A DNA stretch of 64,000 nucleotides from Prochlorococcus sp. AG-347-J06. Lineage in GTDB: Bacteria > Cyanobacteriota > Cyanobacteriia > PCC-6307 > Cyanobiaceae. The DNA lies in assembly GCA_003281525.1 (NCBI GenBank), contig QCBT01000002.1, positions 1 to 64,000 on the forward strand. The letters run 5' to 3'. Both the position numbers and the translations under genes were made by a program. The notes beneath the pieces are model-generated. The model saw only the letters and a list, made by a program, of their open reading frames with translations, was not told the DNA's origin and searched no databases. The stretch's first letter is position 1. Each line of letters starts with the position of its first letter. Below are positions 701-56,934 of this stretch, one piece after another.

Positions 701-776
701 AATTTAAAAGGGTTTCGGGTTAGCCTCCATCTGACGGGGAATCAATATAAATGAATCACCCGAAACTGTCAGATGT
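701..776 (-). promoter_or_regulatory. Putative structured rpsB leader (pseudoknot)
   Basis: Two interleaved perfect inverted repeats: GTTTCGGGT 712-720 / ACCCGAAAC 758-766 and CATCTGAC 728-735 / GTCAGATG 768-775. Confidence 0.6.
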
Positions 777-1969: not shown

Positions 1970-2698
1970 TTATTTTAGCTCACTATGAGCACTATATATT
2001 TTACCATCTTCCATATTTAATATCCTATCAGCCATATCAGAAATTCTTGGATCATGCGTCACCATAAGTACAGAACAATTTTGCTCTTTTGCTAGTTTCC
2101 TTAAAAGGGTTACTATTTCTCTTCCTGTGACGCTATCTAAAGCAGAAGTGGGCTCATCAGCTAATAAAAGTTTTGGGTTAGCAGATAAAGCTCTAGCAAT
2201 TGCTACTCTCTGTTTCTGACCACCAGACAAGTCATTTGGCAACTTTTTATAATGATCTTCTAGTCCTACTGCTGACAACCAATTCCGTGCTATTTCACGT
2301 CTTTGCAAATATGTTAAACCTTTTATTAAGTCGGCGCCCATCTGGACATTTTGTTCTGCTGTTAAACATCTCAGAAGATTGTGACCTTGAAAAATCATTC
2401 CAATACTTCTTCTAAGAATCTGACGAGTTTTCCTTGATGCTCCATTTAACTGATTATTTAATACAGTTAAATCTCCACTTTGACAGGTTCTCAAGGCACC
2501 AATTAATGTTAAAAGAGTAGTTTTACCACATCCAGAAGGTCCTTTCAAAAGAACTAACTCTCCTTTATCAATATTTAAATTAACGTCATTAAGAACTTGT
2601 TTTTTATTCTCATTTTTTCCATAAAAGTGACTCAAATTATTTATTGAGACTGTTTTAAAATTTTTAACATTATTTTTTGATTTATTAGCTTTAACCAT
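1970..2698 (-). CDS. devA: DevA-like ABC exporter ATP-binding protein
   Basis: Walker A GPSGCGKTTLL, LSGGQKQR signature, downstream of DevC/DevB-like genes. Confidence 0.85.
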   Translation of the reverse strand: MVKANKSKNNVKNFKTVSINNLSHFYGKNENKKQVLNDVNLNIDKGELVLLKGPSGCGKTTLLTLIGALRTCQSGDLTVLNNQLNGASRKTRQILRRSIGMIFQGHNLLRCLTAEQNVQMGADLIKGLTYLQRREIARNWLSAVGLEDHYKKLPNDLSGGQKQRVAIARALSANPKLLLADEPTSALDSVTGREIVTLLRKLAKEQNCSVLMVTHDPRISDMADRILNMEDGKIYSAHSELK

Positions 2699-2711
2699 TT
2701 ATGTTTAATTG

Positions 2712-3884
2712 TTAAAAAATTTCGGCAGGGTCAGCGTCAACTAATTTACGCATCGCAACAGCGGCGGACCCCATGCACATAACTAAAACTAATACGAAAA
2801 TTAAAATAGTTTTACCTGCGTCCATTATTATTGGAAGTTTAGTAGAACTTCTTATAACTGAGTAAAGTATTTGACCAGAGAAATAAGCAGGCAAATAACC
2901 AAACAATGCCAACAAAAACCCTTCTCTAGCTACGACAAAGAAAAGGGACTTAAGTCTGTACCCCATGGCCAATAAGGTGGCGTACTCTGGGAGGTGATCT
3001 GTAACGTCACTATAAAGAATTTGATAAACGACCACACACCCAACAACAAAACCCATCAAGGCTCCCAAACTAAATATAAAACCTATCGCAGTGCTATTTT
3101 TCCAATAATTCTTTTCAAATTCTATAAATTGTTTTTTTGTAAGAACCCTAACATCATTTGGGAGTGAGTTGTTTAATATCCTTGAAATCAATTCAGGATC
3201 AGATCCTTTTTTTAGCTTTACCAAACCAATTTCTATACTGCCAGGGGGATTAGCAGGAAAAAGTCTTAAGAAGGTTTCTCGACTAGTTATCAAATTACCA
3301 TCTGCACCAAAAGATGGACCCAACTCCACAAGGCCCTCAACAATTACTCTTTTTCCAGCAACCTCAGTCTCAACTTTTTTTTCAGATAAGAACCATTCTT
3401 CAATCGGTCCAAATTCAGGTCTGGATAGTTTGTCAAAAAGAACTCTTGATGGATTCCTCAATTTATAAGCTTTCTTTGAGAATCCCTCATCTAAAAGAAG
3501 TGAATCGGAGGGATTAAAACCTAATGCAAGTATTGATCTAGTTTTAAGATTTTCTGGATTTCTCCAAAGTAAATAATTTAGATTAACGGGAGTAGTTTTT
3601 TCAACATCTTCTAATGCGAGAGTTTGAATTAATCTTCTTTTGGGGAATCCACTCATGCTTATAGAACTTTTTGATCTGGGACTTATCAAAACAAGATCGG
3701 CATCTAGAAGTTTATGAATAGTTACGCTCGTGTCAAATAAACCATCTCTAAAACCTAATTGCATAAACATCAAAATCCCTGCAAAACTGATCCCAGCTAT
3801 TGCAACTGCAAGCCTTAATGGTTGCCTAGTTAATAACAACCAAGCTAATGGTATTTTTCTAAATTTTAAGAAAGAAAAACTCAT
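2712..3884 (-). CDS. devC: DevC-like ABC transporter permease
   Basis: FtsX-like permease layout, 390 aa, ends SAAVAMRKLVDADPAEIF. Confidence 0.85.
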   Translation of the reverse strand: MSFSFLKFRKIPLAWLLLTRQPLRLAVAIAGISFAGILMFMQLGFRDGLFDTSVTIHKLLDADLVLISPRSKSSISMSGFPKRRLIQTLALEDVEKTTPVNLNYLLWRNPENLKTRSILALGFNPSDSLLLDEGFSKKAYKLRNPSRVLFDKLSRPEFGPIEEWFLSEKKVETEVAGKRVIVEGLVELGPSFGADGNLITSRETFLRLFPANPPGSIEIGLVKLKKGSDPELISRILNNSLPNDVRVLTKKQFIEFEKNYWKNSTAIGFIFSLGALMGFVVGCVVVYQILYSDVTDHLPEYATLLAMGYRLKSLFFVVAREGFLLALFGYLPAYFSGQILYSVIRSSTKLPIIMDAGKTILIFVLVLVMCMGSAAVAMRKLVDADPAEIF

Positions 3885-4797
3885 TAGGGAATAAATTTTG
3901 CAATCACTTTCATTCCTGCATAATTTTGAACGATATCTATAGAATCTTGATCTAGTTTTACTAGTACCTCAATAATTCGTGAATCAGCATCCCCTGTTGG
4001 ATCAGTCGATAGAACTTTTCTTTGTTTTACTTGTGGACTAATCCTAATCACCTTTCCCTTAAGAATTTTTTGAAAACCTCCATTCTCACTGCTCAATTCA
4101 ACATTCTGAGAGATAAAAACTCTATCGATGTCAGATTCATAAACTTCTATCAAAGCTTCCATTTTTTGACTAGAACCAATATCCAAAATCCCTTCATTTT
4201 GAGGCCTTTCACCAACTCTCGTGTTTATTCCAAGGATAAAACCATCAATTGGACTCCTTAGTTTTGAATTAAATAAATCTATCTTGATATTTTTTTGATC
4301 TCCGATAAGGTTTATTTTCTGTTTTTGCAATTTTAATAATTCATCTTTTCTCTGTGAAAACTCTACAAAAGAATATACTTCTTTACTCAAAGCTAATTCA
4401 TACCTTTGAATTTGATCTTTCTTGAGGTTAATTTCTTGGTCAATAGTATTAATTAGATTTTCATTTCTTTCAAGATCAGCAATTAATTTTTCTCCATTTT
4501 CAAAGATTGCTAGGATATCACCTTTTTTTACGAAATCTCCTTCATTCACTAAAATTTTGACAATTCGGGGGGAAGAGCCAAACTGACTTGTTGGAGCTGC
4601 CAATTGTCTAATCTCTCCCGAAGGAGAAAGTTGACCAAGTGCGGCAACAGCTGTAATAGGAGGTATGAAATCTGAGGTTATTTCCTCTTTAAATTTTGAA
4701 CTTGATTTATTATTTCCAGAACAGGAAATAACACCAAGAGATAATGGTATAAAAAATAAAAAATAAATAAATAAATTTTTTAATATTTTTAATTTCA

Positions 4798-4798
<1 letters not shown>
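3884..4798 (-). CDS. devB: DevB-like HlyD-family membrane fusion protein
   Basis: Signal/lipobox-like N-term, biotinyl-lipoyl-like G..V.KGD.LA, coiled coil. Confidence 0.85.
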
Positions 4799-33456: not shown

Positions 33457-33741
33457 TTATCAACATGTGCTCTTGGAATAGATATTTTATCTTTTTATTA
33501 AAAGTAATGATCCCACAGTTATAACAAGAGATTATGATACTTTTTAAACTACATTTTATTTTTTTTTGATGAAGTATTAATACTTAAAATTTTTCTAGAA
33601 AAGCTTGTTTTGATAATGCTCCCGAAGAGTTATCCACTTTTTAAGCGTTTTTCAACAGGGTTTTCCACAATATGTTGATTAAATTTGAATTTCTATGTGC
33701 AAAATCAAATATTATCTTCTTTTGAGAAAAAAATATCCACA
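33457..33741 (+). other. Cluster of DnaA-box-like 9-mers
   Basis: TTATCAACA 33457, TTATCCACT 33630, TTTTCAACA 33649, TTTTCCACA 33661, ATATCCACA 33733, all on + strand. Confidence 0.5.
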
Positions 33742-33801
33742 ATTTTTTTTTGGGATCACTATGATTTCTTTTGTCTTTTAATAATTTCCAGTTCAAATTC
33801 C

Positions 33802-42747: not shown

Positions 42748-42800
42748 AAAAAATAAAAGACCCCTCAAAAACCGTTGATATAACAAGCTTTTAAGAGGTT
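42748..42800 (-). terminator. Intrinsic terminator of the 6S-like RNA
   Basis: Minus strand ACCTCTTAAAAGC...GGTTTTTGAGGGGT (13-bp stem with G-U pairs) then CTTTTATTTTTT. Confidence 0.75.
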
Positions 42801-42975
42801 TACCGGATCCCCGTCAGTTCTCTGCTGCATCGACCTGGAAATGCCAGAAGAGGATTCAAAGTGGGCTTTCGTTTCCGATTACAAGATCGGTTTACTACCG
42901 CATCACGACAGTCTCCTCATGTCGAAAGAGAGTCAGATCAGAGCACATAAAGAAGAACTTAACCAAAGATCCAGT
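42800..42975 (-). ncRNA. ssaA: 6S RNA-like (ssaA/Yfr7-type), downstream of purK
   Basis: GC-richer noncoding block next to purK; ends pair (GGATC/GATCC, AGTTCTT/GAGAACT); followed by terminator on same strand. Confidence 0.7.
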
Positions 42976-42997
42976 AACCTAACTCTAACTTATTTTT

Positions 42998-55431: not shown

Positions 55432-56934
55432 TTGAATAAATTAAAATTAAACTATATCTCATTATCTTTTCTTCCAATTTTGGTATGCATACCTCTAGGG
55501 TATCAATTAATAAACAATATTCATTTGGGAGGATTTAAATTATTCCAAGAATTCTTAATTTCTGCATTTAATCCCAAGATCGATAATGAAATTATTATTA
55601 CCATAATTAATCGATTAAATGAAACTATCTTAATTGGTTTTTTTAGTTGGTTAGTAAGTATTATTTTTGGAGCAATTTTTGGAATAATATCCTCAAATAT
55701 TTTTTATAAAATCTTTAATATTCCAAATTTTTTCTACCGCATAATAAGGTTTTTCCTAACAATAATTAGATCTATTCATGAAGTAGTTTGGGGAATATTA
55801 TTAATGCAAATATATGGAATAAATTTTTCAATAGGAATAATAGCTATATGTATACCTTATATTGCTGTAAATTCAAAAGTTTTTGCTGAACAATTAGAAA
55901 TTATTGACTACAAAAGTTTTGAATCTATAAATCAAATAAATGCACCTAAATTTTCTTCTTTACTAACTTTAATATGGAATCCAATAATAAATACATTTAA
56001 AAACTTTGGTTTATATCGATTAGAGTGTTCAATAAGAAGTACTGTGATTTTAGGACTTTTTGGGATTGGAGGAATAGGTACCAGTATTTTTTTATCTTTC
56101 CAAACTTTGAATTTTAGAGAGTTATGGACTTATTTATGGTCTTTAGCAATTTTGATAATTCTTTCTGGATTAATATTCAAAAAAATAAAATTTAATACTA
56201 CAAATAAAATCCTATCTATTTTTTTTATTGCAGTTTTTTTCATAACAATTTTATTTTCTTTTTCATATTTTCTTTATTTTATTTTTAATAATAATTTTGA
56301 AAATTTTAATTCTGTTAGTTCTCTATTTAAATCAAGCTCAGATTTAGGATTATTTGATTTCTTAAAACTTATATTAGAAACAATAATTTTAAGTCTTTTA
56401 TCAACAGGAATCGCAATTAGTTTACCTCCATTAGTAATAGGAATTTTTAACAACAATAGTTCTAAATTTTTTATAAAAATTTTTGCATTTTTATTACGTT
56501 TAATACCTACACCTGTAATACTTCTAACTCTATTAACTTTTAATAATCCTTCTTTATCTTTAGCAGCTTTAACATTAGGTCTCCACAACGCTGGTATTAC
56601 TAGCAAATTACTTTTTACAAATCTAGATAGACAAGACAAGAGAAATTATATTGCAATGAAATCTCTAGGAATCTCAAAAAAGACTAGTTGGCTTTTAGGT
56701 TTATTTTCTCAACAAGCAAAAAGTTACTTAGCATATTGCGCTTATAGATCTGACATCATTATTAGAGAAACTGCAATTGTTGGGGTTATTGGAAGTGTTG
56801 GTCTGGGTTGGCAATTGCAAGAATCACTAAGTTCCTTCGCATGGCAAGAAGTCACCATAGTTTTGATAGCTTATAGCTCCATCGCAATAGTTGGCGAATT
56901 AATAAATGGTAAAATCAAAAATAGTTTAACTTGA
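55432..56934 (+). CDS. phnE: Phosphonate ABC transporter permease, tandem PhnE
   Basis: 500 aa with two permease modules; RETAIVGVIGSVGLGWQLQ; TTG start. Confidence 0.88.
   Translation: MNKLKLNYISLSFLPILVCIPLGYQLINNIHLGGFKLFQEFLISAFNPKIDNEIIITIINRLNETILIGFFSWLVSIIFGAIFGIISSNIFYKIFNIPNFFYRIIRFFLTIIRSIHEVVWGILLMQIYGINFSIGIIAICIPYIAVNSKVFAEQLEIIDYKSFESINQINAPKFSSLLTLIWNPIINTFKNFGLYRLECSIRSTVILGLFGIGGIGTSIFLSFQTLNFRELWTYLWSLAILIILSGLIFKKIKFNTTNKILSIFFIAVFFITILFSFSYFLYFIFNNNFENFNSVSSLFKSSSDLGLFDFLKLILETIILSLLSTGIAISLPPLVIGIFNNNSSKFFIKIFAFLLRLIPTPVILLTLLTFNNPSLSLAALTLGLHNAGITSKLLFTNLDRQDKRNYIAMKSLGISKKTSWLLGLFSQQAKSYLAYCAYRSDIIIRETAIVGVIGSVGLGWQLQESLSSFAWQEVTIVLIAYSSIAIVGELINGKIKNSLT

Follow-up and report, generated by a model that had tools for sequence, protein, structure and literature searches.

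A conserved pseudoknot in the rpsB leader of Prochlorococcus belongs to the rpsB motif and probably mediates autoregulation by ribosomal protein S2

The leader of rpsB at the beginning of the window (the whole stretch of 64,000 nt analysed here) probably represents a cis-acting operator RNA, homologous to the rpsB motif and to t44, by which S2 autoregulates the translation of rpsB-tsf; we assign a probability of about 0.82 to this reading. The fold of the leader is demonstrated by covariation, it is conserved, it is located in front of rpsB-tsf, and it is homologous to the leader found in E. coli. The element thereby represents the cyanobacterial form of a motif that has been published as the rpsB motif (Meyer et al. 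2009; Rfam RF01815, RF00127). RNAs of this kind are already known, also from Cyanobacteria, and the pseudoknot was published in 2009 (PMC2704228).

The truncated product of rpsB (positions 2-700) showed 100% identity to Prochlorococcus S2 in protein matches, and the DNA is therefore regarded as part of a Prochlorococcus genome. Where related loci were tested, rpsB is followed by tsf. Upstream of rpsB, the first-pass annotation had described two perfect inverted repeats of 9 bp and 8 bp which interleave, and both were recovered exactly where it had placed them. Of the interval it had assigned to the element (701-776), the arms were correctly located; the letters, however, had been given as plus strand, whereas rpsB is encoded on the minus strand and the RNA runs from 779 to 701. 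In addition, the conserved CACA motif (779-776), which is located just 5′ of that interval, is also part of the element. In the 5′ to 3′ direction of the mRNA (minus strand), the arms follow each other in the order CAUCUGAC (775-768), GUUUCGGGU (766-758), GUCAGAUG (735-728), and ACCCGAAAC (720-712), followed by 11 nt and the ATG (700-698). Written as mRNA from 779 down to 698, the complete leader reads CACA-CAUCUGAC-A-GUUUCGGGU-GAUUCAUUUAUAUUGAUUCCCC-GUCAGAUG-GAGGCUA-ACCCGAAAC-CCUUUUAAAUU-AUG. The features are summarized in Table 1.

Table 1. Features of the rpsB leader and its surroundings in window coordinates.
Feature	Position	Strand	Characteristics and evidence
rpsB (ribosomal protein uS2)	2-700	minus	start codon 700-698; contig starts within the gene; ORF and S2 matches
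Spacer before start codon, without Shine-Dalgarno motif	701-711	minus	Shine-Dalgarno-like motif in 1/168 leaders of the Prochlorococcus/Synechococcus family
Pseudoknot 3′ arm ACCCGAAAC	712-720	minus	conservation and covariation across cyanobacterial arm sets
Linker GAGGCUA spanning P1	721-727	minus	GAGG kept in 196/203 leaders; present in E. coli
P1 3′ arm GUCAGAUG	728-735	minus	P1 covariation, 8/8 pairs
P3 hairpin GAUUCA-UUUAUAU-UGAUUC	739-757	minus	5/6 pairs; within the long loop
Pseudoknot 5′ arm GUUUCGGGU	758-766	minus	GGGU unchanged throughout the 75 distinct arm sets; both-side changes at 5/9 pairs
P1 5′ arm CAUCUGAC	768-775	minus	both-side changes at all 8 pairs
CRCA motif, here CACA	776-779	minus	borders the element on its 5′ side; invariant C, C, and A in alignment A2; CACA in E. 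coli too
Promoter-like TTTAGA-16-TAGAAT, extended −10	795-822	minus	consensus scan, 9/12

A third stem, P3, which the first-pass annotation did not contain, is formed within the long loop by 757-752 pairing with 744-739. The long loop was more stable than its shuffled counterparts (mean z of −2.6 for 141 distinct loops), and outside the picocyanobacteria P3 often reads GUUUC...GAAAU. Only 0-3 nt separate P1 from the pseudoknot arm in the cyanobacterial leaders, so that P2 is absent. The promoter-like site at 822-795 places the transcript start approximately 8-10 nt 5′ of the CACA motif, and a TAnnnT box is found mostly 15-19 nt upstream of CRCA among 203 leaders. Because of this site and the similarly placed box in most relatives, the data suggest a leader of ~90 nt which would consist almost entirely of the pseudoknot element. 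Biochemical, expression, or transcript-start data on a cyanobacterial rpsB leader were not found in the open-licence literature.

Elsewhere in the window, two further RNAs were detected in full length and above the Rfam cut-off on the minus strand, namely Yfr17, a cyanobacterial functional RNA (33514-33773, 108.6 bits), and 6S RNA (42796-42980, 97.2 bits). Three adjacent genes (1970-4798, minus strand) putatively encode a DevA/DevC/DevB-type ABC exporter comprising ATPase, permease, and membrane fusion protein, and an ORF of 500 amino acids (55432-56934, plus strand) might encode a fused PhnE-type ABC permease for phosphonate or phosphite uptake, both assigned by eye. Among the sampled relatives, one cyanobacterial genome carries a glutamine riboswitch (RF01739) above the Rfam cut-off near rpsB (L145, 2473-2529, plus strand).

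A minimum-energy fold of the leader restricted to nested pairs gave no signal (z = −1.4), and structural support therefore comes from the comparison between genomes. The rpsB loci sampled comprised 80 named Prochlorococcus/Synechococcaceae contigs as well as genomes across the genus, the family, and the phylum. Arms were excised by the sequence anchors YRCAYR, GGGT, the GAGG box, and A(C/T)CC, complementarity not being used, and 203 cyanobacterial leaders were parsed in this way. The resulting alignment A1 contains 75 distinct arm sets, including four rows added by hand (L163, L119, L190, and L191), two of which (L190 and L191) lack an anchor and had their arms assigned visually, the pairing being taken into account; the mis-anchored L197 was left out. 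Standard pairs were present in 94.9% of the A1 cells compared to 83.1% after shuffling of columns, and at most 53% were paired when the partners were slid by 1-3 columns. For P1, double changes were observed at all eight pairs with 97.3% of the cells paired. The pseudoknot alone showed double changes at five of nine pairs and 92.7% paired cells (at most 65.5% with slid partners), one example of a compensatory change being CUACGGGU/ACCCGUAG in L190. Its inner GGGU/ACCC is nearly invariant; as no double change occurs at four of the pseudoknot pairs, these are supported by conservation and not by covariation. The first-pass annotation had named a lack of compensatory changes between the paired arms as the finding that would speak against its pseudoknot. 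The comparison yielded both-side changes at 13 of the 17 pairs among the 75 arm sets, and the pseudoknot survived. On the evidence of these alignments, the rpsB leader pseudoknot is real and conserved and is not a product of chance.

The motif described by Meyer et al. is located before rpsB, Cyanobacteria are explicitly named as its carriers, its P3 varies in length, its P2 is short or absent, and its pseudoknot joins J2-3 to the sequence 3′ of P1 by 5 pairs (PMC2704228). The same features were found here: the element (779-712, minus strand) lies directly upstream of rpsB (start at 700), P1 covaries, P3 lies in a loop that folds better than shuffles, P2 is absent, and a pseudoknot connects J2-3 with the 3′ extension of P1. 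Nevertheless, the leader gave no match at the Rfam gathering cut-offs, which are 40 bits for RF01815 and 44 bits for RF00127 (t44). RF01815 did not score in the window even at E values up to 10, and below its cut-off it matched the rpsB leaders of eight other cyanobacteria with up to 31.5 bits. We regard this shortfall of RF01815 as a limit of the curated model and not of the structure. Matches of t44 below its cut-off were obtained in the rpsB leaders of two other cyanobacteria. The t44 model aligned to the leader in the window with 26.0 bits (E = 0.0015 over 301 bases), which is under its cut-off. A search with RF00127 across the genomes of the phylum gave chance-level matches only, with 0/146 genomes above the cut-off, and for this reason a cyanobacterial covariance model, R1, was built from 54 cyanobacterial leaders, using P1 pairs only and leaving E. 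coli out of the training. R1 detected the rpsB leader of E. coli K-12 (478-554 of L222) with 26.3 bits and E = 1.6 × 10−5 in 78.5 kb. Homology between the two leaders, in sequence as well as structure, is therefore supported in both directions. The first-pass annotation had proposed that the element might correspond, in cyanobacteria, to the autoregulatory rpsB leader of E. coli, and this mutual detection supports its proposal.

R1 identified a single significant site in the Prochlorococcus genome itself, located before rpsB. Across the phylum, exactly one site was present in 88 of 194 sampled genomes, all of which belong to the cyanobacterial class (88/92 genomes of that class), and the sites lay just upstream of rpsB wherever they were compared with gene positions. 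R1 had no match in four genomes of the class; these fall into three families, the sampled leaders of which (L190, L191, and L196) contain diverged yet recognisable versions of the element. No R1 site was detected in the non-photosynthetic relatives except for a weak partial match in one of them (L202, E = 0.008). These four diverged rpsB leaders (L190, L191, L196, and L202) derive from deep or unusual lineages; L190 has neither CRCA nor the GAGG box and retains P1 and the pseudoknot with the compensatory changes mentioned above.

Differences within the cyanobacteria were observed close to the start codon. A Shine-Dalgarno-like motif after or overlapping the pseudoknot 3′ arm was present in 35/35 leaders of cyanobacteria outside the Prochlorococcus/Synechococcus family and in a single leader (1/168) within it. 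In the same family the pseudoknot has a nearly constant length of 9 bp, compared to 6-9 bp elsewhere. We did not find these details, the longer pseudoknot and the family-specific loss of the Shine-Dalgarno motif, in the open-licence literature. As the mechanism of S2 repression is unsettled, the loss of this motif next to a near-constant 9-bp pseudoknot in one family lends itself to comparison with the other cyanobacteria.

Regarding function, P1 (8 bp), the small P3, and the 9-bp pseudoknot form a compact fold with its last base 11 nt before the start codon. Most likely, S2 in excess of free 30S subunits would bind this fold, possibly with S1 as a partner, and stabilise it; ribosome entry would then be blocked by the folded RNA, thereby lowering S2 and, via the downstream tsf, also EF-Ts. 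Because the leader is homologous to that of E. coli, S2 is most likely the ligand in cyanobacteria; translational repression, with occlusion as its mechanism, likewise appears most likely. A fold ending 11 nt before the ATG would fall inside the region normally covered by a ribosome during initiation, which makes occlusion plausible. For E. coli, repression of rpsB-tsf via the leader is described when S2 exceeds the 30S subunits, with S1 assisting; the operator does not include the ribosome binding site there, and how repression comes about is not settled (PMC10931766). Consequently, occlusion may not be how repression works.

A structured leader might also act by RNA stability or by standby or S1-dependent ribosome recruitment, without feedback by S2. 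Family members devoid of a Shine-Dalgarno motif need another route for recruiting ribosomes, and pseudoknots have been reported as high-affinity S1 targets (PMC10931766). However, S2 feedback has been demonstrated for the homologous E. coli leader (PMC10931766), and the sole significant site in the genome precedes rpsB; we therefore consider this explanation unlikely. Quite improbable, in our view, is a two-state switch. In such a switch the P1 5′ arm would have two alternative partners: the P1 3′ arm, giving the pseudoknot state, or GGGUG of the pseudoknot 5′ arm, giving an early hairpin (CAUCUGA/UCGGGUG) that leaves both 3′ arms free for translation. The early hairpin, which excludes both the P1 and the pseudoknot helices, comprises seven pairs in the window, and the first five P1 bases can form 5/5 pairs with GGGUG in 203/203 parsed leaders. 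This pattern may, however, be a by-product of the purine-rich P1 3′ strand, and as GGGUG is invariant, covariation cannot bear on the early hairpin. Moreover, the early duplex has an energy of −6.3 kcal/mol compared to −10.3 kcal/mol for P1 and −13.0 kcal/mol for the pseudoknot, and the hairpin is not kept in E. coli. As a tentative and rather doubtful extension, the operator might have been rebuilt in the Prochlorococcus/Synechococcus family, with the Shine-Dalgarno motif lost, a near-constant 9-bp pseudoknot in its place, and the early hairpin of P1 5′ arm and GGGUG in every leader examined, so that S2 control would operate by switching folds where the start codon lacks a Shine-Dalgarno motif.

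The inverted repeats could further be read as terminating or attenuating transcription of the gene upstream, since a scan yielded one terminator-like site (775-757). Strong terminators typically end in a U run, which the tail of this site, AUUCAUUUAU, does not resemble; throughout the class the structure accompanies rpsB, and the arms reach to 11 nt before the ATG. We consider a terminator or attenuator highly improbable, and it was rejected on account of this tail and the class-wide linkage to rpsB. That the repeats arose by chance was evaluated by dinucleotide shuffling of the 128-nt intergenic stretch, in which perfect arms that interleave and add up to 17 bp or more occurred in 3 of 5000 trials. 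Within the whole 64 kb, one other 80-nt place showed an interleaved pattern of similar size; it is an AT-rich coding sequence at ~56176 inside the ORF of the putative PhnE-type permease. Covariation across the phylum refutes a chance origin, which was rejected as practically negligible.

An S2-type operator known from proteobacteria would be retained in nearly all sampled photosynthetic cyanobacteria, the genome-reduced Prochlorococcus included, and rpsB-tsf feedback becomes testable in a laboratory cyanobacterium. With the rpsB motif (RF01815, PMC2704228), the element shares the position upstream of rpsB, P1, P3, the J2-3 pseudoknot, and the absence of P2 in Cyanobacteria; it differs in the pseudoknot, which has 6-9 pairs in the cyanobacteria studied here versus the 5 published. 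With t44 and the E. coli leader (RF00127), it has CACA, an 8-bp P1, GGGUG, GAGGC, and AACCC in the same order, and the downstream order rpsB-tsf is likewise found in the related cyanobacterial loci tested. The E. coli leader is distinguished by a long P3, a longer junction before GGGGU, a 5-bp pseudoknot, and a ribosome binding site outside the operator, whereas the Prochlorococcus element ends 11 nt before the ATG. A pseudoknot close to the start codon, or 5′ of it, combined with translational feedback is also described for the E. coli alpha operon (S4), E. coli rpsO (S15), and mycobacterial rpsO (PMC10931766), systems which involve other proteins and were compared here with the rpsB leader by position and mode of control.
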